Assembly (NCBI GenBank): GCA_903854335.1
Contig: CAINVY010000009.1
Coordinates: 1-33,807 of the forward strand
Length of the DNA stretch: 33,807 nt
Direction: 5' to 3'
Origin: an uncultured Candidatus Peregrinibacteria bacterium
GTDB taxonomy: Bacteria; Patescibacteriota; Gracilibacteria; Peribacterales; Peribacteraceae
A program made the translations under genes and the position numbers. Of this stretch, positions 235-19,592 are shown one piece after another (position 1 is the first letter of the stretch; each line of letters opens with the position of its first letter). The notes beneath the pieces were generated by a model, which made no database searches, was not told where the DNA came from, and saw only the letters and a program-made list of their open reading frames with translations.

Positions 235-3200
235 TCACTTCACCTTTGCACTGCTCGCACTCGATGCCGATGCGGAGGAAGCTTGCTCGCGCTTCAGAAG
301 GCGAAGAGCACGTCTTTTGGCTTCGGCTGCGGCAGCCGAGGAGGAAGATGCGGACAGTGCCTGCTTGCGTTTCTGCAACGTCGTGAGACTCGAAGAGCTC
401 GAGCTGCTCGTGAGATTTTGTATTGAACCCTTCACAGCAGCCTTTCCCGGTGTACCGAGTGTCGTGCTGTTCGTCCCGCCCGTTGTTCCGCGACTTCCTC
501 CGCCACTGCCCCCATTCACACTTCTGGCAGAGCTGGAACTGGAAGCAGGTTCCTCTGTAGAAACGCTGCTGGAGCTGGAAGATGATGTCTCCGAGGAGAC
601 AGAGCTGGAACTGGAACTGGTGCTTGAGCTTGAGCTCGGTGGAGAGCCCTGTATGTCATGCGACTCAAGACTTGATTCGGAGCTGGAGGTCGAATTCGAT
701 GAAGAGCTGGAACTGGAAGAAGTGGAGCTGGAGGAGGAGTTCGATGATGTACCACATTGATTTACATTCCATGTAGTTGTACCTGGACACGTAATGGTAT
801 CGCCAGTTTCTCGCGTCACCGTGGCATTGGTAAAGTCTGGCGGGTCGGTAATATCTCCAGAAGCATCTATGAGTCCATAGTTGTCCACTCTGCCCGAAAA
901 TATGCCTCCATAGATGGTACCGTAGTAGTTTGTAAATCCACCAGAGAATGTACCACCAGCAATGGCACCCATGAGATTCTGTACGTTGGGTATATTGCAA
1001 TTACCTGTTATATCAAAACCGTACCCCATAAATCTTGTAATCCCAATTACAGGTGAATCACCGTTTGCGATGGCATCATCTGAGAGCGCAAGATTAAAAT
1101 CTTTATAGAGATCATCCTGATACCACGGTGCCGAGATTGCTTGCCGTGTAGCTGCCGCATCATAAAACCAGTTTGCTGGATTTTCCCAGGCATTGTCTCC
1201 GCTTACGTTTTTGAAGTAGAGGGTAGTACCTAAAGCTACGCACGCGCTTCCATTCCAGTAATTTCCAGATGGACAATCACAAGTATTCTTAGTGCAAGAA
1301 CCATTTACGCATTGAGAATAGTCAGAGCAATAAGCTTGGGCTCCACCACAAATTGAGTCACTGCCACAAGATAAATTAGGGTCACAGTCATAACCACCAG
1401 GATTGCAACTTGAACCCAAAGGAGCATTACCAAAACAATTGCCACCCGCACAAACACTCGAAGCACACTGAGTCCCGTCAGTACAAGAATCTCCAGTGTT
1501 TAGAAGGGCTGCGCACGCACTCCCATCCCAATTGCCGAAAGCACAGTCACAAACATTCGTTGAAGTATCACAATGTCCCGTTGTTAACGAACATGCATCA
1601 TCGTCATCACAGCTTGAGCCATATTTGCTAGCGTCCGTACAAAGGTTGTGATGACAAGTATTTGGGCTTGCGCAGTACAAATCAGTTTGCGGACAATATG
1701 CTCCATCACCACCGCAAGTGTAGTCACTGCCGCACATAGCGATTCCATCACAATCAAAACAATCAATACAGCTTTGACCCAAAGTAGCTCCACCAATACA
1801 TACGGTGCCGCCATTACAAATGCCAGAGCTACATTGTCTAGCATCAGTACAGCTTTGCCCATTTTCAAGAGTCGCTACGCACGCGGTTCCATTAAAGAAA
1901 TCACCGCTTGCGCAAGAAATTGTTCCGCCATTATTTGTTACTGTTCCGTTGATGGTTAGCCCGCTTGATAGATCGAGAGTTGCTCCACGTTCCACCGTTA
2001 TATCTCCGTTAAGAGTTCCTGTGCCATTCACTGTTCCCCCGTTATCAAAAGCAGTTCCAGCACCGCTCGTAATTGTTGCCGAGCTATTAATGGTAACTGT
2101 ACCGTAACCATACATTCCCGCTCCAGCAGAAAAATTATTAATGGTCCCAGATATATCATTGATTGCACTTGATCCGTCCCATAGATACACACCATATCCA
2201 TTTCCATTATTATTGATGGTTCCACTGATTTCTTCAACATGTGCGCCCGGTGCCAAAAATACGCCGTGACCTCCGCCATTATTATCAACAACTCCCGAGA
2301 TATTGATTGCCATGCCACTCACGCCACTAAGGTATTCATTATCTATACCCTTACCGCTGCCAATATTCGTAACAGTTCCGCTCATGTCTGTTAAGGTACC
2401 TATATTGTAGATAGCGGAGCCACCATCGGCACTGTTTATAACGTTAATGTGCTGTATAGTTGCTTCGGCGCCAGAGGATAGAGAAATTGCGCTGTCTGTT
2501 GTACTTGGACCAGTATTCTCAATAGAATTTCCATATGCGCCGTCTATAATAACTCCCGTCACATTTTCAGAGACGGTGATGCAACTTCCGCTGGGTGAAG
2601 TAAGGCTTGTGTTAAGTGTGTACGTTCCGCTTGAGATAATTGTTCCGCAGGAGCCAACGTATACCGAACCGCCTTGGGCATCAAAAGTAACGGGTGAGGT
2701 TACGCACATTCCATAAGCATTTGTGCCATCAAAAATACTGCCTGAGTATTTTCCAATACTGGTGCAATCGAAGGTTTGTAACTGATATATTGTTGCACCA
2801 TTGTTAGTTAACGTGCCAATAATTGTAAGTCCGCCGGATAAATCAAGAGTTGAGTTAATTTCCAGTTTTATATCTCCGTTGAGTGTACCCGCACCGTTGA
2901 CCACCCAATTGTTGTCAAAACCTGTCCCACCGCCGGTGTTGGTAATTATTGGGGTGCTAAAAATTCCGACCGTTCCATTATTGTATATGCCGAAACCACT
3001 ACTGCTGTTATTGATGGTTCCACTGATGTCGGCAATAACAGCTCCCAACGTTTGGTTATAGATGCCATTGCCAACATTACTATTATTAACCGTTCCACTG
3101 ATTTTAGTAATGATCCCCTCGTTGAGGATACCAACCATTCTACCGCTATTGGTAACTGTCCCGGACATATCAGTTATCGTTCCATTGTTTTGGATCCCAG

Positions 3201-4413
3201 CATAGAAATCTCCACTACTTATGACCGTTATATTTTGAATGGTTGCCTCGGCTCCCACGCTAATATAAATTCCGTTTCCCGCCCCAGCATTTTCAATAGT
3301 ATACGTATTTGCTCCGTCGATAATTACGCCGGTTACATTTGGAGCAACCGTAATACAATCACCGCCGGATGAGGTAAGACTGGTAGTTAATGTGTATGTT
3401 CCGTAAGAGATTATTATTCCGCAAGAACCAATGTCTAGATTTCCACCATGGATTTGGGCGTCAAAATTTGGCAATGACACGCACATTGCATAATCATCTA
3501 AACCGTCAGAAATACTTCCAAGTGTTTTACCAATACTGGTGCAGTCGAAGCTGTACACTGGTGTTATTGATCCACCAATATTTGTTACTGTACCGCTGAT
3601 TGTAAGTCCGTTAGATAAGTCAATATTCGCCCAGGTTTCTACTGTTATAATTCCATTAATTGTGCCTGAGCCATTAACTGTTCCCTGGTTTTCAAAAATA
3701 GTTTCCACTCCTGAAAGTGTGATCGTAGATGTGCTACTAATTGTGATCATCCCGCTGGATTCATTATTAATACCAGTACCATCGCCAGTATTACTAACAG
3801 TTCCGCTTAAATTTGAAATTGTACCGAAGTTATCGATCCCGATACCCTCGTTGGTATTAACAATCGTTGCGCTAATGCTGGTAATTATGCCACTCGATTC
3901 GTTAATGATGCCCGCGCTACTAGGACTATTTTGATTAAGATCACCACTAATGCTAGTGATTGTGCCATAGTTATCAATGCCAAAATAATAACCATTATTA
4001 TTAAAAGCCCCAGTGATATCGGAGACAGTACCGTTGTTAACAATACCATGTGAATTTGAACTGTTTGTCACATTACCCAAAGTTACCGAATATCCACTTG
4101 GAATGCCTGCATCAGAAACAGAATTACTATCAATGACAATATTGGATCCATCCGGTGGCACACTATTTTCTTGCCAGTTCGTTGGCTCGTTCCAGCAAGA
4201 TGCTGGATCTACGCTTGTTTCGTTGCACTCTATAGAGCCAGTGCTCGCTCCGCCAATCCAGTGGAATGTGGGGGCAGATGATTCATCCCCGAGCAGATGA
4301 AAGTGTTTCAACGTCACGAATGCACCCATGAGGAGCACAACTGCGGCCACGAGCCCAAGCGCGATGCGCCTGCGGCGGGAAAGGAGAAGCGGCATATTTA
4401 TTTGTTGGGACAT
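235..4413 (-). CDS. Large membrane-anchored repeat-rich surface protein
   Basis: A 1392-residue protein of unrecognised family. A basic stretch (RRRR) and one hydrophobic segment (about 17-35) act as signal or N-terminal anchor. Residues about 100-830 are three modules of roughly 259 residues built from short Gly/Asn/Thr repeats of the type GTIxxISGTVxN, which predict a parallel beta-helix; two modules share FDCTSIGK, a Cys pair and GTYTL(T/N)TSLTS. Residues about 830-1060 are Cys-rich with EGF- or EB-like units such as GxSCxDxxQCxSxxC and end at CDCPSGNYWNGSACV. A further Gly-rich domain precedes a Ser-rich tail (from about 1220) and a Lys/Arg/Ala C-terminus. No C-terminal membrane segment or sorting motif is visible. 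It is probably exposed outside the cell as an adhesin or stalk-like protein; this is inferred from composition and architecture. It has its own promoter. Confidence 0.8.
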   Translation of the reverse strand: MSQQINMPLLLSRRRRIALGLVAAVVLLMGAFVTLKHFHLLGDESSAPTFHWIGGASTGSIECNETSVDPASCWNEPTNWQENSVPPDGSNIVIDSNSVSDAGIPSGYSVTLGNVTNSSNSHGIVNNGTVSDITGAFNNNGYYFGIDNYGTITSISGDLNQNSPSSAGIINESSGIITSISATIVNTNEGIGIDNFGTISNLSGTVSNTGDGTGINNESSGMITISSTSTITLSGVETIFENQGTVNGSGTINGIITVETWANIDLSNGLTISGTVTNIGGSITPVYSFDCTSIGKTLGSISDGLDDYAMCVSLPNFDAQIHGGNLDIGSCGIIISYGTYTLTTSLTSSGGDCITVAPNVTGVIIDGANTYTIENAGAGNGIYISVGAEATIQNITVISSGDFYAGIQNNGTITDMSGTVTNSGRMVGILNEGIITKISGTVNNSNVGNGIYNQTLGAVIADISGTINNSSSGFGIYNNGTVGIFSTPIITNTGGGTGFDNNWVVNGAGTLNGDIKLEINSTLDLSGGLTIIGTLTNNGATIYQLQTFDCTSIGKYSGSIFDGTNAYGMCVTSPVTFDAQGGSVYVGSCGTIISSGTYTLNTSLTSPSGSCITVSENVTGVIIDGAYGNSIENTGPSTTDSAISLSSGAEATIQHINVINSADGGSAIYNIGTLTDMSGTVTNIGSGKGIDNEYLSGVSGMAINISGVVDNNGGGHGVFLAPGAHVEEISGTINNNGNGYGVYLWDGSSAINDISGTINNFSAGAGMYGYGTVTINSSATITSGAGTAFDNGGTVNGTGTLNGDITVERGATLDLSSGLTINGTVTNNGGTISCASGDFFNGTACVATLENGQSCTDARQCSSGICNGGTVCIGGATLGQSCIDCFDCDGIAMCGSDYTCGGDGAYCPQTDLYCASPNTCHHNLCTDASKYGSSCDDDDACSLTTGHCDTSTNVCDCAFGNWDGSACAALLNTGDSCTDGTQCASSVCAGGNCFGNAPLGSSCNPGGYDCDPNLSCGSDSICGGAQAYCSDYSQCVNGSCTKNTCDCPSGNYWNGSACVALGTTLYFKNVSGDNAWENPANWFYDAAATRQAISAPWYQDDLYKDFNLALSDDAIANGDSPVIGITRFMGYGFDITGNCNIPNVQNLMGAIAGGTFSGGFTNYYGTIYGGIFSGRVDNYGLIDASGDITDPPDFTNATVTRETGDTITCPGTTTWNVNQCGTSSNSSSSSTSSSSSSSSNSTSSSESSLESHDIQGSPPSSSSSTSSSSSSVSSETSSSSSSSVSTEEPASSSSSARSVNGGSGGGSRGTTGGTNSTTLGTPGKAAVKGSIQNLTSSSSSSSLTTLQKRKQALSASSSSAAAAEAKRRALRLLKREQASSASASSASSAKVK
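500..750. repeat. Low-complexity Ser-codon repeat inside the surface gene
   Basis: On the minus strand this stretch is runs of serine codons with scattered Glu, Thr and Val (poly-Ser linkers). On the plus strand the same DNA reads as CTGGAA/GAGCTG-type repeats, giving a spurious Leu/Glu reading frame. Such DNA is prone to slippage, so Ser tract length may vary between strains or in assembly. Confidence 0.7.
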
Positions 4414-4569: not shown

Positions 4570-6822
4570 TCACATACTTGTCCTCTCCAGAAACACCTTC
4601 CTCGGTTTCGCCCCGTCCGGCGGACCGATGAGCCCCTTTTCTTCCATGATGTCGAGCAGTCGGGCCGCGCGTGCGTAGCCGACTTTCAATTGTCGTTGCA
4701 TCAAGCTCGCGGAAGCTTTGCCCGTTTCCTGCACGACGCGCAGCGCCTCGAAGAACATCTCGTCGCCGCCGTTGTCATCCGCGTCGAGATTGATGGTTCC
4801 CGTTGTGCTCGTTGCGATGTCATTCTCGGTCGGCAAACTGTCTCCGCCCTCGCCATCATCATCGCCTTCCTCGCTCATGCCGATCTGTTCCGTGATCTTT
4901 CCGCCGCCGGCGATCTTCACGGCATTCACCACGCGTTCCATCTCCTTCGTGTCGGTGAAGATGCCCTGCACGCGAATGGGCTTCGGCGTCTTCGCGTCCA
5001 TGTAAAGCATGTCGCCCTGTCCCAGAAGATCCTCCGCGCCGATGGCATCGAGGATCGTGCGTGAGTCGACGGAGCTCACCACGCGGAACGCAATGCGCGT
5101 GGGGATGTTGGCTTTGATGAGACCCGTGATGACGTCCACCGACGGACGCTGCGTGGCGATAATGAGGTGCATGCCGCAGGCGCGGGCCATCTGCGCAATG
5201 CGGGCGATCATCGTCTCCGTGTCGCGGCGGTACTGACGCATCATGAGATCGGCGAGCTCGTCGATGACGATGACGATGCGCGGGAGCATGTTCGAGTCCT
5301 CCTTCTGTTTCTCGTTGTACTCAAAAATGTTGCGCGCGCCCTGTTCGGAGAAGCGATGGAGACGGCGTCCCATTTCCGCCACGGCCCATCGCAGCGCCTG
5401 CAACGCGCGCTCGGCTTCCGCGAGGACGGGCGTGAGGAGGTGGGGAATGCCGTCGTAGGGCATCAGCTCGACGCGTTTGGGATCGATGAGGATGAACTTC
5501 AATTCATGCGGCGCATTCTGGTAGAGGAGCGCGGTGAGAAACGTATTCATACAGACGGACTTTCCCGATCCCGTGGCACCGGCGATGAGAAGGTGCGGCA
5601 TGTTCTCGAGATTCGCGACGTACGCTTCGCCCGAGACGTCTCGGCCGAGCGGGAGTGTGAGTGACGATTGGCTCTGGACGAACGCGGGGCTTTCGAGAAT
5701 TTCGCGCAGGTGCACGGTGGAACGGTGGGCGTTGGGCATCTCGATACCCACGAGGGACTTGCCGGGAATAGGCGCTTCGATGCGCAGGCTGGGCGCGGCG
5801 AGGGCAAGAGCGAGGTCGTCTTTGAGCGCGCCGATCCTCGCGATCTTCACACCCTCGGCCGGCTCAAGCGTGAACTGCGTGACGGTCGGACCGGGCCGCG
5901 CGTCACGCATCGTCACCACTACGTCGAACTCTCGCAGCTTCTCTTCAATCAGTTTCGCCTGTTTCTTCAAGTCTTCGTCGTTGATCATGAGCTTGCTCTG
6001 CTCGTTCTCAAGGAGATCGAAGCTCGGAAACGTCCACTCCTCGAAGCGCGTGTCCGTCATGCGAATACTGTCCGGCTTGAGTTTCTTCAGCGACGCTGCG
6101 GCTTTGCTTCCCTTGCTCTTGGATGCGAGCGCGAAGGCCGGACGCACGATGTTCAGCTCGGGAACGGGAGTGTCCTGTTCGACGAGGTCATCATCGTCCT
6201 CCTCCTTTTCCTTCTTCGTCATTTCTTCCTCTTCGTCGTCTTCCATTTCCTCATCCTCAAGCGTGACGATCTCTCGGTCGCGCACGCGCTCCTTCTTCTT
6301 GGATGCATGGAAGAGTGACGTCAACAAACTGAAATCCGGTTCGAAGAGAATGAGAACACCTACCAGAAATATCGCGCCAAGGACGGTGTAGCCCACGGCC
6401 GGACTGAAAAAGCGGAGGATGGGGAGCGCGATCAGGAAGCCGATAGCTCCCGCGAGTTCGTCCTTACGCGTGAAGATCTCGTCGAACGGTGCGCCGATGT
6501 GGATGAGTCCGAGGAACGAGAGGAAGCAGAGGAGCAATCCCAGCGAGCGTCGCGCTTCGATGGTAGCGTCGGGGGCGATCCAGTGGAGGATTCCCGACCC
6601 GATGAGGAAGAGGGGAATCAGCACGCCCCATGCCCCGGCAAGAAACCGCAGGAACGCATTCAGTTCGTCGCCAACATTCCCGGCAGCGCCGCGCAGGGCC
6701 AAAATGAAGAGGATGCCGAGACAGATTTGGACAATTCCGGTGATGGCTGACTTCGTCCCCGATTTGAGATCGAGCTTCTCCTTTGCCGCCTTTCTCTTTG
6801 CCTTGCGTCGGGGCCGTGGCAT
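4570..6822 (-). CDS. ftsK: DNA translocase FtsK/SpoIIIE
   Basis: A 750-residue septal DNA pump that moves chromosome ends across the closing division septum using ATP. The N-terminus has four or five membrane segments between residues about 31 and 160. A very acidic linker (about 188-212) follows, then the alpha/beta motor with Walker A GATGSGKS (415-422) and Walker B ending IDELAD (D521, E522), and a C-terminal gamma winged helix (about 685-745, with GYARAARLLDIMEEKGL) that reads KOPS-like polar DNA sites. The linker is much shorter than in E. coli FtsK and close to SpoIIIE size. The ATG start is supported by a promoter 8 bases upstream. It is divergent from the reductase gene. Family identification is secure. 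Confidence 0.97.
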   Translation of the reverse strand: MPRPRRKAKRKAAKEKLDLKSGTKSAITGIVQICLGILFILALRGAAGNVGDELNAFLRFLAGAWGVLIPLFLIGSGILHWIAPDATIEARRSLGLLLCFLSFLGLIHIGAPFDEIFTRKDELAGAIGFLIALPILRFFSPAVGYTVLGAIFLVGVLILFEPDFSLLTSLFHASKKKERVRDREIVTLEDEEMEDDEEEEMTKKEKEEDDDDLVEQDTPVPELNIVRPAFALASKSKGSKAAASLKKLKPDSIRMTDTRFEEWTFPSFDLLENEQSKLMINDEDLKKQAKLIEEKLREFDVVVTMRDARPGPTVTQFTLEPAEGVKIARIGALKDDLALALAAPSLRIEAPIPGKSLVGIEMPNAHRSTVHLREILESPAFVQSQSSLTLPLGRDVSGEAYVANLENMPHLLIAGATGSGKSVCMNTFLTALLYQNAPHELKFILIDPKRVELMPYDGIPHLLTPVLAEAERALQALRWAVAEMGRRLHRFSEQGARNIFEYNEKQKEDSNMLPRIVIVIDELADLMMRQYRRDTETMIARIAQMARACGMHLIIATQRPSVDVITGLIKANIPTRIAFRVVSSVDSRTILDAIGAEDLLGQGDMLYMDAKTPKPIRVQGIFTDTKEMERVVNAVKIAGGGKITEQIGMSEEGDDDGEGGDSLPTENDIATSTTGTINLDADDNGGDEMFFEALRVVQETGKASASLMQRQLKVGYARAARLLDIMEEKGLIGPPDGAKPRKVFLERTSM

Positions 6823-13806: not shown

Positions 13807-13835
13807 GCCCGGTCTTTGAATTTCCAATCTATTTG

Positions 13836-14555
13836 ATGAATCGGAACAAAAGTCTCAGTGTGATAAGCGTTATCGATGACCTCATGTCAGAGCGGGTAAC
13901 CGTACCCATTCATCGAGGCGGGGAAGTTATTCCCCTGCAGCGCGCATCTGCTACGGCTGTGGAGAAGCTTTTGGTACATGATTCAAAAGAGAAGGATGTG
14001 CCTGGACATTTTTTGGAGACCTCAGATCTGCGTCAACGGCAGGTCTATGATGCTACGGCAATTCTCGGTTTCGGAGAGCGGGCTCGTGAGTCGATTGTTG
14101 TAGGCGAACCAGGAGAGATCGTTATCCGTTACGGAGGATGGTCATTGAAGGAATTGTTTTTCTCGTCGATCGGTGGTGATCTCATCCATGATCAAGAGTT
14201 CTGGTTGTACTATCCTTGGGCAAATCAAAAAAAACCCGCCGGCATTTATGCCATGAGACTTCCGATTCCTGATTCTGGCGAAAAATCATTTCCGGATCAG
14301 ACACATCTGCTTCACGGAGATGAACGAGCGGTTCCGGTTGTTCTTGGTGCTTCGGCTCTGCTTGCTCAACATATCATGGGGGGAGAGAATCATTTGAAGG
14401 GAAATTGGACGCGCTGCAGAGAGAAATCGAATTCCGGTCATGTGGCACTCAGCTGGTATGGTGGCAGGCTTGATGTAAGCGAGCACGGGGATGACATCTA
14501 TCGAAAGCATCTTTGGCTATCGTCCTGTCGAAGAATTGGAGATGAGGTCGGTTGA
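13836..14555 (+). CDS. Hypothetical protein, 239 residues
   Basis: I do not recognise this family. ATG 13836 is preferred over the adjacent TTG. It has no signal peptide and no membrane segment, so it is probably cytoplasmic. The middle has beta-rich, aromatic segments (GEIVIRYGGWSLKELFF, FWLYYPWANQKKPAGIYAMRLP) and conserved-looking Gly and Trp residues; the sequence does not look low-complexity. It opens a run of three same-strand genes ending in the PEP-synthase-like protein, with gaps of 122 and 35 bases and a second promoter in the first gap. Function unknown. Confidence 0.7.
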   Translation: MNRNKSLSVISVIDDLMSERVTVPIHRGGEVIPLQRASATAVEKLLVHDSKEKDVPGHFLETSDLRQRQVYDATAILGFGERARESIVVGEPGEIVIRYGGWSLKELFFSSIGGDLIHDQEFWLYYPWANQKKPAGIYAMRLPIPDSGEKSFPDQTHLLHGDERAVPVVLGASALLAQHIMGGENHLKGNWTRCREKSNSGHVALSWYGGRLDVSEHGDDIYRKHLWLSSCRRIGDEVG

Positions 14556-14624: not shown

Positions 14625-14653
14625 TTGACAAATATCAAAGAAATTGCTTGAAT
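14625..14653 (+). promoter_or_regulatory. Promoter of the 121-residue gene (extended -10)
   Basis: A perfect -35 TTGACA (14625-14630), a 17-base spacer, and -10 TTGAAT (14648-14653) preceded by TGC, an extended -10 element. The start near 14660 leaves an 18-base AT-rich leader without a Shine-Dalgarno sequence. Confidence 0.6.
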
Positions 14654-14677
14654 ACTTTGAATTCTTTCCCCAATATT

Positions 14678-15043
14678 ATGAGTCCATGTCCGCGCAGATT
14701 CGATGAGAAGCCTGATGATCATGAGATCCCCAATATTCGTGTAGTCACTTCTGCCACTCAGAATATTTCATCGATCCCTCAAGAAATCTCATCGGCGAGA
14801 TTTAATGCACGAAATGTTCTGTGTCTTGTGATCGGGGAGAGACCCGTTGTGAGGGTACCCGAGCCGTCAATACAGGCGGAAACAAATGCTCGAATGGTGA
14901 TCGGGGAAAGCCCGCGTGTGTCGGAACCCGATGTATCAAAGAAGGCGGGGGCAATCAAACATGCTCAATGGCTTCCTGAACAGGCGAGAGTTAAGGCTTA
15001 TCCTTTGGCCTCCTGGAGTGATGTAAAAGGAAGGAAAAGATGA
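14678..15043 (+). CDS. Small hypothetical protein, 121 residues
   Basis: Not recognised. It has no membrane segment, is rich in Pro, Glu and Arg, and is probably largely disordered. A short internal duplication is visible: NARNVLCLVIGERPVVRVPE and NARMVIGESPRVSEPD share NAR, VIGE, P and acidic-Pro positions. ATG 14678 follows a convincing promoter; an in-frame TTG at 14648 coincides with the -10 box and is rejected as start. The gene ends 35 bases before the PEP-synthase-like gene, so the two are probably co-transcribed. It could be an accessory or regulatory peptide for that enzyme (inference). Confidence 0.6.
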   Translation: MSPCPRRFDEKPDDHEIPNIRVVTSATQNISSIPQEISSARFNARNVLCLVIGERPVVRVPEPSIQAETNARMVIGESPRVSEPDVSKKAGAIKHAQWLPEQARVKAYPLASWSDVKGRKR

Positions 15044-15078: not shown

Positions 15079-17145
15079 ATGATGCACGAAGAGACACTAG
15101 AATACTTTACTTTGGACCGTAAAAATCTCGATCATGGGCGATCTATAACCGAAAGTCGTCATACAGTGAGGAGTGACACGTCACCGAATGTACAGAATGT
15201 TCGAAGAAGAATTCTTGAGCTTATCGAAAATGCAGGCTTGCAAGATGTCGTGACGAATCTCTTGAGAGAAATTACCCATCCTGATTGTGTACACCTAGAA
15301 CAGTCCGCGTACCTCGACTCTCTTCGCACGATGATGGCGGATGACGCGGCATTATTGCGATTGCTGTATTCACTGGATTCCTATGTTCAGAGAATCAGCA
15401 GAAGCATTTCGGATTCCACCGTGCACTTCTGCCATCGAATGGGGCCTACTGCTGATGTCTTTGCGGTAAAACCGGCCGTTGAGTATGATTTGAAATACTT
15501 GGTTCAAACGTATCTGGAACACATAGAGGACTTAGACTTCACTCTGTTGCTCTATAATTCTGCTTCGCTCCAAGGCCAATCGGATCCAGTGGAGAGAGCA
15601 GAAGCTGCCGATCAGCTTTTAGAACGATTGGGTCAATTGGTCGATGCACATGATATCTTTATGGTTGCTGAGGGCGCAGAGCTTGCCTATCAACGCTTGA
15701 GTGCAGCCAATGTGCTTCAGTTGATGCAATCACCGTATGAAGCGCAGTCCCGCTGGATGCGAAACGGTACACAAGTCTGGAGAGAACACAGTCAAACGCG
15801 GGAGATTCTCAGGCTCCTCGATACTGCGAAATGCGAGCGGAAGATATTGCAAGCAATTGGGCACGTGGATGAAACGAAACTGCGCGCCGAAACGCTCACG
15901 TACGGCGCGAAGGGCGCGAATCTAGAAGTGCTGCGCACATTGGCGCCAAAGATCAATATGATTCTCCGGACGGGGTGCAGCTTCACTATTCCTCCATTCG
16001 AGAGGATTCCGACTTCATTGTATGAGCGCCGGGTGCAGGGAGAGGATATTCGTGAGGATTTGCGACCGTACTTCGAATGGATCGACGGTCAGGAAACGTG
16101 GGTGCGCAGCAGCGAGGTATTTTCCGAAGACAATGAGGCAACGACCGGAGCGGATATCTATCATTCCGAGCTCTTGCCTGCGGGTGCTTCCTTCGAGGAG
16201 TTTGTGGATGCAGCGGAGCGTGTGTATGCATCCGTCGATGATCCCAAGGCCGTTGAGTATCGAGAGAGGAATGACATTCATCAGGCCAGCATGGGCATAG
16301 TGCTCCACCGATCTGTGCAATATGCACATGGAAAGGGACATATGAATACCGTCAAACCCTTTGCGCCCGGACAATTGGAAGTCGTGATGGAGGGTCGTGC
16401 GGGCAGAGTCATCTTCAAGAAAGACGTACAACATCGTTTGGTGATGGAGCATGGCTTCTCCGCCACCGTTTCCACGGTGTTTCGCTTTCAACCTGATCAA
16501 CAGAGACTCAAGGGGCTGGAGCAGATCTGCGACACGGCAGATATCGGGATGTTCGTGGAGATGCACTACGGCAGGCCGGTGCAAATGGAATTTCTCCATA
16601 GTACCGGTGTCGTCGATGGCGTGCAGGTGCGCTTGCTCCCGCCTCATGTGCTGACACCACCTCCTGAAGTTACTTTTCCTAACAATCAGGATCTCCTTCT
16701 CGAATGCGATGCCGTCGGCATCGGGGATATGGAGTTGGATATGCTTCCAACACTTGGAGATAACAACGGAAAGAAGGGATTTGTCGTATTTAATCAGAGT
16801 CAATTCACAACGAATAGGAAGGGCGGGATTCACCGATATTTGCCTGGAGAAGGAGCGGTGGCAATTCTTCGGCCATCACGTTCAAACGCCGGTCACATAG
16901 AGACACTTTGTGTTGAGCGCGGATTGCTCTGTCTCTTCATGTCCGAAGGTTCCTGCCATACGAGGACGCAAGCTCTGGAGAACCTAGAAGAAATTGCTCG
17001 GTCATGTGACACTTATGACGTCGTGCATTATTCACATCTTGCGGGACACACTCGTGTGAGAGTGGTGGCAGATAATACAATGGGAAGAGTGTATCCGGCA
17101 AAGCTGAGAAAACCTCCTGAAGAATCGCAGCAAGGAGTTTCCTGA
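15079..17145 (+). CDS. PEP-synthase/PPDK-like phosphotransferase of unknown substrate
   Basis: 688 residues. An N-terminal region of about 265 residues is not recognised (helical). Residues about 272-525 match the ATP-grasp pyruvate/PEP-binding domain of PEP synthase and pyruvate phosphate dikinase: GAKGANL (276-282, ATP-binding Lys278), WVRSSE (341-346), and GRPVQMEF (498-505), which corresponds to the GxPQDIEW metal-binding region. Residues about 570-630 match the swivelling phosphohistidine domain, with H606 in NAGHIETLCVERG as the likely phosphorylated residue. The C-terminal TIM-barrel of true PEP synthase is absent, so this is shorter, in the style of rifampin phosphotransferase but with a different order (ATP-grasp and His domain behind a novel N-terminus). 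It likely transfers phosphate from ATP through His to an unknown acceptor. The start ATGATG follows GGAGGT. Confidence 0.75.
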   Translation: MMHEETLEYFTLDRKNLDHGRSITESRHTVRSDTSPNVQNVRRRILELIENAGLQDVVTNLLREITHPDCVHLEQSAYLDSLRTMMADDAALLRLLYSLDSYVQRISRSISDSTVHFCHRMGPTADVFAVKPAVEYDLKYLVQTYLEHIEDLDFTLLLYNSASLQGQSDPVERAEAADQLLERLGQLVDAHDIFMVAEGAELAYQRLSAANVLQLMQSPYEAQSRWMRNGTQVWREHSQTREILRLLDTAKCERKILQAIGHVDETKLRAETLTYGAKGANLEVLRTLAPKINMILRTGCSFTIPPFERIPTSLYERRVQGEDIREDLRPYFEWIDGQETWVRSSEVFSEDNEATTGADIYHSELLPAGASFEEFVDAAERVYASVDDPKAVEYRERNDIHQASMGIVLHRSVQYAHGKGHMNTVKPFAPGQLEVVMEGRAGRVIFKKDVQHRLVMEHGFSATVSTVFRFQPDQQRLKGLEQICDTADIGMFVEMHYGRPVQMEFLHSTGVVDGVQVRLLPPHVLTPPPEVTFPNNQDLLLECDAVGIGDMELDMLPTLGDNNGKKGFVVFNQSQFTTNRKGGIHRYLPGEGAVAILRPSRSNAGHIETLCVERGLLCLFMSEGSCHTRTQALENLEEIARSCDTYDVVHYSHLAGHTRVRVVADNTMGRVYPAKLRKPPEESQQGVS

Positions 17146-17194: not shown

Positions 17195-17794
17195 CTATTC
17201 CTTCGGCTCGACGGGCTGGCTCATGTACTTTCGTTGCTCAGCAGCATTCATCTTGGATACCGGGTTGTCTTTGTCATCCTGATATCGCTTCCTGAGATAC
17301 TGCTCGAGTGCCTTTTGATCTCCCTGCGATTGCAAGAGCAGTACCTTCCTCCTGCTTTCGATGCTGTTCGCGAAGTGCAGCGTGTAGCGTGTTTGAGGTC
17401 TGATCGCCTTGATGACTTCCTCCGCTTCTTTATTGAGCGTTTGGATGGGGACACCGACGTCCAATTCTTGATAAAGGGTGAGATCGGGTTCGATTTCGAA
17501 GTATTTCCTGTTGGTGATTAGGGATGCATAGTTGAGTCTCTCGGCTGTCTGCGTGTTCGGGGTTGCAAGGCACGCATTCACTGCCTCTCTGTACGCATCG
17601 ATGGATTTGTTCACATCGACTATATGTTCATTTAGCTTTTCCCCCGTCATGGGTGTTGGAGGACGGCTGACACTGCAAATCGCAGCTCCAAACCCAATTG
17701 CCGCAATGGAACCGGCTACCCAGCCGATGGTTTTTCTCAGTGCACTTTTCTGAGGTGGGGATTCTACCGTGGAGTTGTGCTCAGGTTGACTCAT
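17195..17794 (-). CDS. Tandem membrane-protein family, member C (one domain)
   Basis: 199 residues, unrecognised family. A short N-terminal tail is followed by one membrane helix (about 22-41), then an all-helical domain (about 58-148) homologous to domains in the two genes upstream. Shared positions are IVDVNKSIDAYREAVNAC at the domain start, a middle ANRKYF-like segment (here TNRKYFEIEPDL), and LNKEAEEVIKAIRPQT near the end. The C-terminal 50 residues are charged and unique. It is last in a three-gene minus-strand operon (63 bases after member B). Topology suggests the domain lies outside the membrane (inference). Confidence 0.75.
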   Translation of the reverse strand: MSQPEHNSTVESPPQKSALRKTIGWVAGSIAAIGFGAAICSVSRPPTPMTGEKLNEHIVDVNKSIDAYREAVNACLATPNTQTAERLNYASLITNRKYFEIEPDLTLYQELDVGVPIQTLNKEAEEVIKAIRPQTRYTLHFANSIESRRKVLLLQSQGDQKALEQYLRKRYQDDKDNPVSKMNAAEQRKYMSQPVEPKE

Positions 17795-17857
17795 GTGCGT
17801 TGGGGGAAGGGGAGTCGTCGTGGGGAGAAGTGAAAAAATATTCGCTTCGTCGAAACA

Positions 17858-18772
17858 TTATTTTGCTTCGGGTTGAGGATTGAACTTCGCTTTCACCTCC
17901 TGTGTTACCGTCGGTTTGTCAGAATCACTTTCTTGAATCGAAAGCGATGTGAGATCCCTTCTCATCCCCTCATCGCCGTGTAATTGCTGTGTAATCCAAA
18001 GCATATTTCTTCTGCAGATGCGGTTGATGTCCCCTTGAGTGTCGGTTGTAAAGGGGCGAACATTTTCAATGGATTTCATTGCGTCTCCATTCAACGCTGC
18101 AACGAGCGCACCCATGTCGCAATCTTGATCGGGATTGAGATCGGAGTGTTTGAGAAAGTATTTGCTGTTGGCAGCGAGAGAAGCATCATCGAGCATATCC
18201 GCTCCTTGTTGGCTCGGATGATTATTGCATTCTTGCAAGGCAGCTTTATATCGCAAGATCGCAGCCCTTACGTCGCTTGTGCTCCCCGCGTCATTCTCTC
18301 CAAGCCAGTAACCAATCTGCGCGTGTAAAGATGTGTTTCTGCCATCGATGGAACTCAAAAGCTCCTGCGTATTGTGCGTCTGGGGTTTGATCGATCTGAC
18401 GGCATCCATTGCTTCGTTATTCAAGAATTCGAGCAGATTGTCCTTATCCAATTTCTGTTCTTGAGTAAGTTCCGGCTGGATGCTCCAGTACATGCTGTTG
18501 GCTGATCGAGCGGTCCGATCGAGTTCATCGAGATAGAGTTCCGGGGACATCAAAACGCCCGCGATGGCCGACCGGTACTGAGCGAAGGCATAGCGCACAT
18601 CAACGATTTCTCTAGCAAGCACCTTCTCGTGTGACTTCTGATCCCCAGATTGAGAGAGCTGATCGCATCCATAATACAAAACGGAAGCTGCAACAGCCGC
18701 GAGTGCCATTGCCCTTTCCTGGCTTGCCCAATTGGAATACATAATCGGAGTGTGTTCATGGTAATCTGGCAT
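17858..18772 (-). CDS. Tandem membrane-protein family, member B (two domains)
   Basis: 304 residues from ATG 18772. An alternative GTG at 18820 overlaps the stop of the upstream gene and would add 16 residues of unlikely sequence. One membrane helix (about 21-35) precedes two copies of the family domain (about 56-144 and 167-252). Copy 1 has DVRYAFAQYRSAIAG and LNNEAMDAVRSIKPQT; copy 2 has DVRAAILRYKAALQEC and LNGDAMKSIENVRPFT, and the SANSMYW/AANSKYF pair aligns between them. Internal duplication is therefore clear. The family is not one I recognise; no catalytic motif is evident, and a structural or sensing role is possible. Confidence 0.75.
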   Translation of the reverse strand: MPDYHEHTPIMYSNWASQERAMALAAVAASVLYYGCDQLSQSGDQKSHEKVLAREIVDVRYAFAQYRSAIAGVLMSPELYLDELDRTARSANSMYWSIQPELTQEQKLDKDNLLEFLNNEAMDAVRSIKPQTHNTQELLSSIDGRNTSLHAQIGYWLGENDAGSTSDVRAAILRYKAALQECNNHPSQQGADMLDDASLAANSKYFLKHSDLNPDQDCDMGALVAALNGDAMKSIENVRPFTTDTQGDINRICRRNMLWITQQLHGDEGMRRDLTSLSIQESDSDKPTVTQEVKAKFNPQPEAK

Positions 18773-18816
18773 AAACGTGGGGGAAGAGAAAAGATGTTCG
18801 CAAAGTTGGCAAAAAC

Positions 18817-19302
18817 TCACGGAGTTCTTAATGGTGCGGTTACTCCGTGATTCTGCCCATGTTTCTGCCCATCTTTCATGCGCGACAAGAATTGCTCCGT
18901 GTCGGGAGTCTGCGGCTCCGCCGCAGAAACGATGTCTGTAGTGATGTCATTCAGCAGAGCGAATTCCCTGTCTGTCTCTCTCTTCTCATCTTCGCTGAGT
19001 AAGCTTCCTCGTGCGTCGTATCTCTCTCCCGCTTTGCCGGACGCTTCGATGAGCGCTTGCAGCGCGTGTTGATCGTCTGTCGTCAAACATGCCGCGATCG
19101 CTTGTCGGTACTGGGTTGTTGCCTGATGAATATCCATCATCGCCTCTCCTCCGTGGCCGATCTTCCTAGAGGAATCGGGGAGAAACAAAGCCGACAAAAT
19201 CACACCACTCAAAACTATTCCTGCAACAAGAGAACGTTTCGATGTTTCCGGTTCTTCATTCGACGCGGAGTCCGTGGCTGGCGGTACGGTGTCTGGATTC
19301 AT
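18817..19302 (-). CDS. Tandem membrane-protein family, member A (one domain)
   Basis: 161 residues, first gene of the operon. The acidic N-terminal tail, membrane helix (about 24-42) and single family domain (about 57-142) follow the same plan as members B and C. Landmarks are QATTQYRQAIAACL, LLNDITTDIVSAAEPQT and PDTEQFLSRM. The PQT triplet and the preceding Leu-Asn are the most conserved points of the family. The C-terminus is short and Gly/His/Gln-rich. A promoter with an overlapping palindrome lies 40-70 bases upstream. Function unknown. Confidence 0.75.
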   Translation of the reverse strand: MNPDTVPPATDSASNEEPETSKRSLVAGIVLSGVILSALFLPDSSRKIGHGGEAMMDIHQATTQYRQAIAACLTTDDQHALQALIEASGKAGERYDARGSLLSEDEKRETDREFALLNDITTDIVSAAEPQTPDTEQFLSRMKDGQKHGQNHGVTAPLRTP

Positions 19303-19506: not shown

Positions 19507-19592
19507 GGGTCGGTAGCAAAGTGGTCAAATGCAGCAGACTGTAAATCTGCCGTCTTAGGACTTCGAAGGTTCAAATCCTTCCCGGCCCACCA
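19507..19592 (+). tRNA. tRNA-Tyr (anticodon GTA)
   Basis: 86 bases including an encoded CCA. Acceptor GGGTCGG pairs with CCGGCCC (one U-G pair). The anticodon stem GCAGA/TCTGC encloses loop CTGTAAA, anticodon GTA. A long variable arm follows (class II, as expected of bacterial tRNA-Tyr). The T-arm is GAAGG-TTCAAAT-CCTTC. It reads the tyrosine codons TAT and TAC. It stands alone, not in a tRNA cluster. Confidence 0.97.

Follow-up and report, generated by a model that had tools for sequence, protein, structure and literature searches.

Pathogens provide the best-known cases of head-to-tail arrays of anchored, fast-evolving paralogues at a fixed site, an example being the PFam54 genes of Borrelia (CspA and its paralogues). 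The Borrelia PFam54 array comprises 6 to 11 genes, their number differing between related genomes (PMC11389397). The array described here resembles it in the head-to-tail order, the rapid evolution and anchoring of its members and the constancy of its site, and would extend such arrays to a bacterium of free-living or epibiotic habit with a genome of 1.2 Mb. The window, i.e., the whole stretch of 33,807 nucleotides that was analyzed, lies within contig C9 of an uncultured Candidatus Peregrinibacteria genome (G000; 1.17 Mb, 96.6% complete). As in PFam54, gene number is variable, with three genes in G000, at least six in a second genome (G001) and one in a third (G019) at the same locus.

The genes A, B and C of the window (Table 1) encode three neighboring membrane-anchored proteins with one, two and one copies of a common domain, respectively, a layout put forward by an earlier sequence-only reading and on which open reading frames and homology search agree. 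Hydropathy confirms the proposed single membrane anchor, as each protein has one N-terminal hydrophobic segment, and the gene positions bear out that A, B and C are adjacent. Gene B probably starts at the ATG at 18772 rather than at the GTG at 18820. The leader at this ATG, CTCTTCCCCCACGTTT, resembles those of A and C, and with this start the intergenic gaps measure ~45-64 bases, a spacing that favors one operon for A-B-C. The additional proposal of one palindrome-controlled promoter is not supported: the palindrome TTTGATTTCCGAAATCAAA is real, but the G001 array lacks it in its upstream region, which led to its rejection as a conserved operator, and a search of the minus strand upstream of A gave no sigma-70-like site. 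By eye, A, B and C are not preceded by an evident Shine-Dalgarno-like sequence, and their leaders are rich in pyrimidines, a feature also seen before several further genes of the window. Elsewhere on the minus strand, TATAAT- or TATACT-like hexamers lie within ~12 bases upstream of the ATG at 4413 (1392-aa gene) and at 6822 (FtsK), as would be expected for leaderless mRNAs. The 1392-aa protein (235-4413, minus strand) produced a weak EB-module match only and could belong to the large, cysteine-rich extracellular proteins that have been described from Peribacteria (PMC4736985).

Table 1. Features of the array and its surroundings (window positions).
Feature	Position	Strand	Description	Evidence
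Gene C	17195..17794	-	199 aa; anchor and one domain copy with C-terminal helix and tail	ORF and translation
Domain copy in C, with C-terminal helix and tail	17198..17635	-		AlphaFold2 model
Anchor of C	17666..17719	-	residues 26-43; Cys near end	hydropathy
Gene B	17858..18820	-	320 aa from GTG; anchor and two domain copies	ORF and translation
Domain copy B2, with C-terminal helix and tail	17861..18292	-		alignment; modelled
Domain copy B1	18293..18631	-		alignment; modelled as four-helix bundle
Anchor of B	18665..18709	-	residues 38-52 of GTG form; ends in GC	hydropathy, terminal Cys
Gene A	18817..19302	-	161 aa; tail at the N terminus, hydrophobic anchor and a single domain copy	ORF and translation
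Domain copy in A, with tail	18820..19149	-		alignment
Anchor of A	19180..19230	-	residues 25-41	hydropathy
Palindrome TTTGATTTCCGAAATCAAA	19353..19371	.	between A and tRNA-Tyr	
tRNA-Tyr(gta)	19507..19592	+		ARAGORN

A search of the source genome with C returned domain 1 of B (E 7.1e-12), domain 2 of B (6.5e-11), the copy in A (7.6e-4) and no other match. Because exactly these copies are recovered, the four are regarded as real homologues, beyond chance; the copy in A reaches E 5e-30 against a profile of 15 copies, A itself being among the training sequences. A shared, unrecognized and repeatedly duplicated domain, as claimed by the sequence-only reading, is thus borne out by homology within the genome and by family searches without a shared match. 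Its description required revision. The domain measures ~105 residues in four long helices instead of the ~87 first estimated, and a C-terminal helix and tail are added in most copies (~146 residues in C). The proposed QYRxAI start occurs in A and B1 and is replaced in B2 (RYKAAL) and C (AYREAV), the ANxxY(F/W) center applies to B1 and B2 and fails in C (TNRKYF) and A (AGERYD), and the PQT near the end is present in three of the four copies, B2 having PFT.

The domain is not explained by any Pfam, NCBIfam, PHROGs, PADLOC, phage or plasmid family, and structural searches of the PDB gave no significant match. Comparison of the 15 copies with Pfam-A at E ≤ 1 yielded 13 scattered hits, each from a single member, and the suggested profile check accordingly ended with no known family matched by all copies. 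PADLOC gave no match for the domain copies at E ≤ 1, and PHROGs gave weak single-member matches (best E 0.00098) and no family common to the copies. Viral contigs searched with C and with a three-sequence alignment contained no match, and no relative of the domain was found in the phage and plasmid records searched. One of the 15 copies matched TPR_MalT (E 0.07; 12.8 bits against a cut-off of 45), and no copy reached the TPR profile cut-off. The label of an undescribed system, also attached to the cluster earlier, is too strong for one gene family without a demonstrated partner gene.

The C domain was modelled with AlphaFold2 from the 15 copies (pLDDT 95.1, pTM 0.87), with helices at residues 2-24, 28-51, 54-76 and 83-103, followed by 107-122. 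B was modelled as two such bundles (pLDDT 87.0), their mutual arrangement being less certain (pTM 0.63). The modelled C and B domains are thus four-helix bundles, and the unrelated folds that would have spoken against a common domain were not seen. Foldseek found no PDB match to the models at E ≤ 0.001. The best VIA-align scores (Z 11.6 and 11.8) were obtained with designed repeat proteins at rmsd 7-10, which is within the noise for helical bundles, and the best structural matches overall, among the folds that the searches list, are designed helix bundles and repeats, in keeping with a generic bundle fold. Sequence entropy on the core and outward faces of the four main helices, assigned from hydrophobic moments and not from model coordinates, is 1.69/2.61, 1.96/2.45, 1.79/2.75 and 2.32/2.73, the core face being lower in all four. 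Among the best conserved positions are Y15, A18, C22, L34, S38, L67, I92 and R95 (C-domain numbering).

A single N-terminal hydrophobic segment is found in every family member. A cysteine lies near the end of this segment in 6 of 10 proteins, where fewer than one would be expected (binomial 1.5e-5), and is missing at the anchor in the other four. A canonical lipobox (ILAGC) is found in the G019 protein only and is degenerate or absent in most members. All seven genomes tested encode lipoprotein signal peptidase (signal peptidase II). From these features we infer a lipoprotein ancestry, with most members now being simple anchored proteins or degenerate-box lipoproteins. The SRRHFL motif of the G019 member raised the possibility of a Tat-exported lipoprotein, which was rejected because TatC (PF00902) was not found in G019 and six other genomes by a search that was positive in 11 of 14 known genomes. 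The domains most likely face outside the membrane; around the anchors of A, B and the G001 members D5 and D2, charge is weakly biased. According to a published report (PMC4736985), Peregrinibacteria invest in surface components, and several lgt copies as well as sortase occur in them.

Relatives of the family are rare. Searches of 59 related genomes with C and B detected it in two further genomes, and a genome collection search likewise returned these two as the sole relatives. G001 (uncultured Ca. Peregrinibacteria bacterium, AlinenLipids bin-9222) belongs to the same genus as G000 and carries at least six tandem genes with ten domain copies, four of the six genes having two; the array is located on a contig of 7.3 kb whose end is reached shortly after the last gene, which makes the gene count a lower bound. 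Genes D5 and D4 of this array overlap by ~49 bases when D4 is started at its first ATG (L069 2987-4074). In G019 (bacterium isolate casp40-mb.283), which is placed in the same family as G000 and in a different genus, a lone gene encodes a single domain copy and a lipoprotein signal. When the 15-copy profile was run on genomes of the family (74), the phylum (240) and the class (353), no additional member was convincing, and at full sensitivity the profile uncovered no hidden member in the syntenic stretches of G002, G003, G007, G014, G015, G020, G092 and G094. Weak profile matches in G494, G039 and G004 have the appearance of chance matches and were rejected as partial matches within unrelated proteins, the one in G004 being recognizable by eye as DNA ligase; weak matches in G567 and G132 fell outside those read. 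A single-query match in G001 (C107, E 0.0057) was also discarded, as it overlaps an apparent undecaprenyl-diphosphate synthase.

The position of the array is constant. In all three carrying genomes it is divergent from and 5' of tRNA-Tyr(gta), so that the suggested conservation beside the same neighbor is found in both G001 and G019. Two pilin-like genes follow the tRNA in G000 and G001. Four relatives without the family (G002, G003, G094 and G007) have tRNA-Tyr ~0.5-3.6 kb from the same MacB-type permease, the gap being empty or filled with other genes. Since these relatives keep the tRNA near the same permease, the site can be considered ancestral and the array gained, lost or changed there. 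A 688-aa protein (15079-17145, plus strand) is shared by G000 and G001 only, among 40 genomes, at 74% identity; a PPDK_N-like ATP-grasp match (E 1.9e-7) lies close to the middle of this protein, and a match to Abi_alpha (E 7e-5) stayed below threshold. In G001 this gene is followed by an SDR-like frame (G001:C94, L057 2-682, minus strand) where the G000 array starts, and the two arrays therefore differ on that side too. Between the permease and the 688-aa gene lie small, poorly conserved genes without a Pfam match (13833-14555 and 14648-15043, plus strand). Two G001 genes of this kind (L057 3240-3950 and 4075-4755, minus strand) have an RYGGWS-type motif in common by eye and may represent a second duplicated family.

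Comparison of G000 and G001 revealed a marked difference in divergence between the array and its flanks. The permease and ABC ATPase are 86% identical, HlyD 82%, the pilins 60% and 74% and three small flanking proteins 46-66%. Against these mostly 46-86% identical flanks, the array proteins reach 23-31%; two small neighbors are poorly kept as well (a short match only for 7937 and 29% identity for 13833). For C, identity to the G019 protein (41%) exceeds that to the tested G001 protein (30%). Because array proteins diverge much faster than the flanks, divergence is a poor clock and no evidence of great age. The earlier argument that the duplication must be old is therefore weak, the domain tree also being largely unresolved. 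Only two branches of this tree are well supported, uniting the N-terminal (95/96) and the C-terminal copies (95/93) of the G001 genes D2 and D3, which on this topology are the products of duplication of a two-domain gene.

We give about even chances to the reading of A, B and C as part of an array that is restricted to the lineage, diverges rapidly and encodes anchored extracytoplasmic modules with a putative ligand-binding role. Each member would start with a short tail in the cytoplasm, continue with a hydrophobic anchor and carry one or two domains folded as four-helix bundles, which may act as binding modules on the cell surface. Duplication together with quick change of the surface could then generate a changing set of binding specificities, and the opposing, likewise changing partner might be other cells, phages or secreted proteins. 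A more far-reaching version, possible though doubtful, is a previously undescribed surface-diversification locus of Peregrinibacteria linked to tRNA-Tyr, in which a helix-bundle domain duplicated within and between genes would adapt its exposed faces to changing partner cells or phages. A conserved core with a variable surface is, however, also the outcome of neutral drift of a scaffold, and the array sites are too diverged for dN/dS estimation. Lineage-specific structural or spacer proteins of the envelope, duplicated by chance, constrained in their helical core alone and drifting without an adaptive arms race, are an unlikely alternative. The predominance of core residues among conserved positions and the generic fold agree with it, as does the absence of the family from most relatives, including two near-complete genomes of the same genus, which indicates that it is dispensable. 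Yet the polar positions R16, S38, N42, N68 and R95 (C-domain numbering) are conserved beyond a bare hydrophobic core, and the ten intact domains in at least six intact open frames of G001, none of them seen to be broken, suggest maintenance of the array.

Immunity or exclusion functions are improbable in our estimation. Immunity arrays typically comprise small anchored domains with rapid turnover and accumulate divergent copies in tandem, and the array here has these traits; its members could be helical inhibitors of toxins, lytic enzymes or phage entry whose copies differ in specificity. No toxin, phage or defence gene was found beside the array, however, and the lack of PADLOC matches and of phage or plasmid relatives adds to this. 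The proximity of a HlyD/MacB-type ABC export system, whose permease pair lies 3.4 kb from the array in G000 and directly precedes the gene in G019, brings to mind accessory proteins of the exporter, e.g., extracytoplasmic partners holding its substrate. We regard this as very improbable: relatives without the family retain the exporter at 50-62% identity, its opposite orientation means that it is not co-transcribed with the array, and the constant neighbor is tRNA-Tyr and not the exporter. Being small, well modelled, fast-changing and tied to one chromosomal site, the anchored family offers a direct way to approach cell-cell contact in these mostly uncultured bacteria: the domain can be expressed, its partner searched for and its variation traced in natural populations.

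Two described systems come closest. TPR and other right-handed helical-hairpin repeats share the antiparallel helices, and the structures matched by the B model include TPR-like and designed helical repeats, with Z up to ~11. Nevertheless, the helices of the present domain span 21-24 residues whereas TPR helices are short, and such Z values are common for helical bundles according to the tool. The Borrelia PFam54 array is located at a plasmid end, in contrast to the chromosomal position beside tRNA-Tyr in the Peregrinibacterium. Furthermore, some members here carry two tandem domains, the lipobox is degenerate or absent in most, and none of the 15 copies matches such a Pfam family at E ≤ 1. 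Judged from sequence, the array is unrelated to Borrelia PFam54 by any test made and is organized like it.
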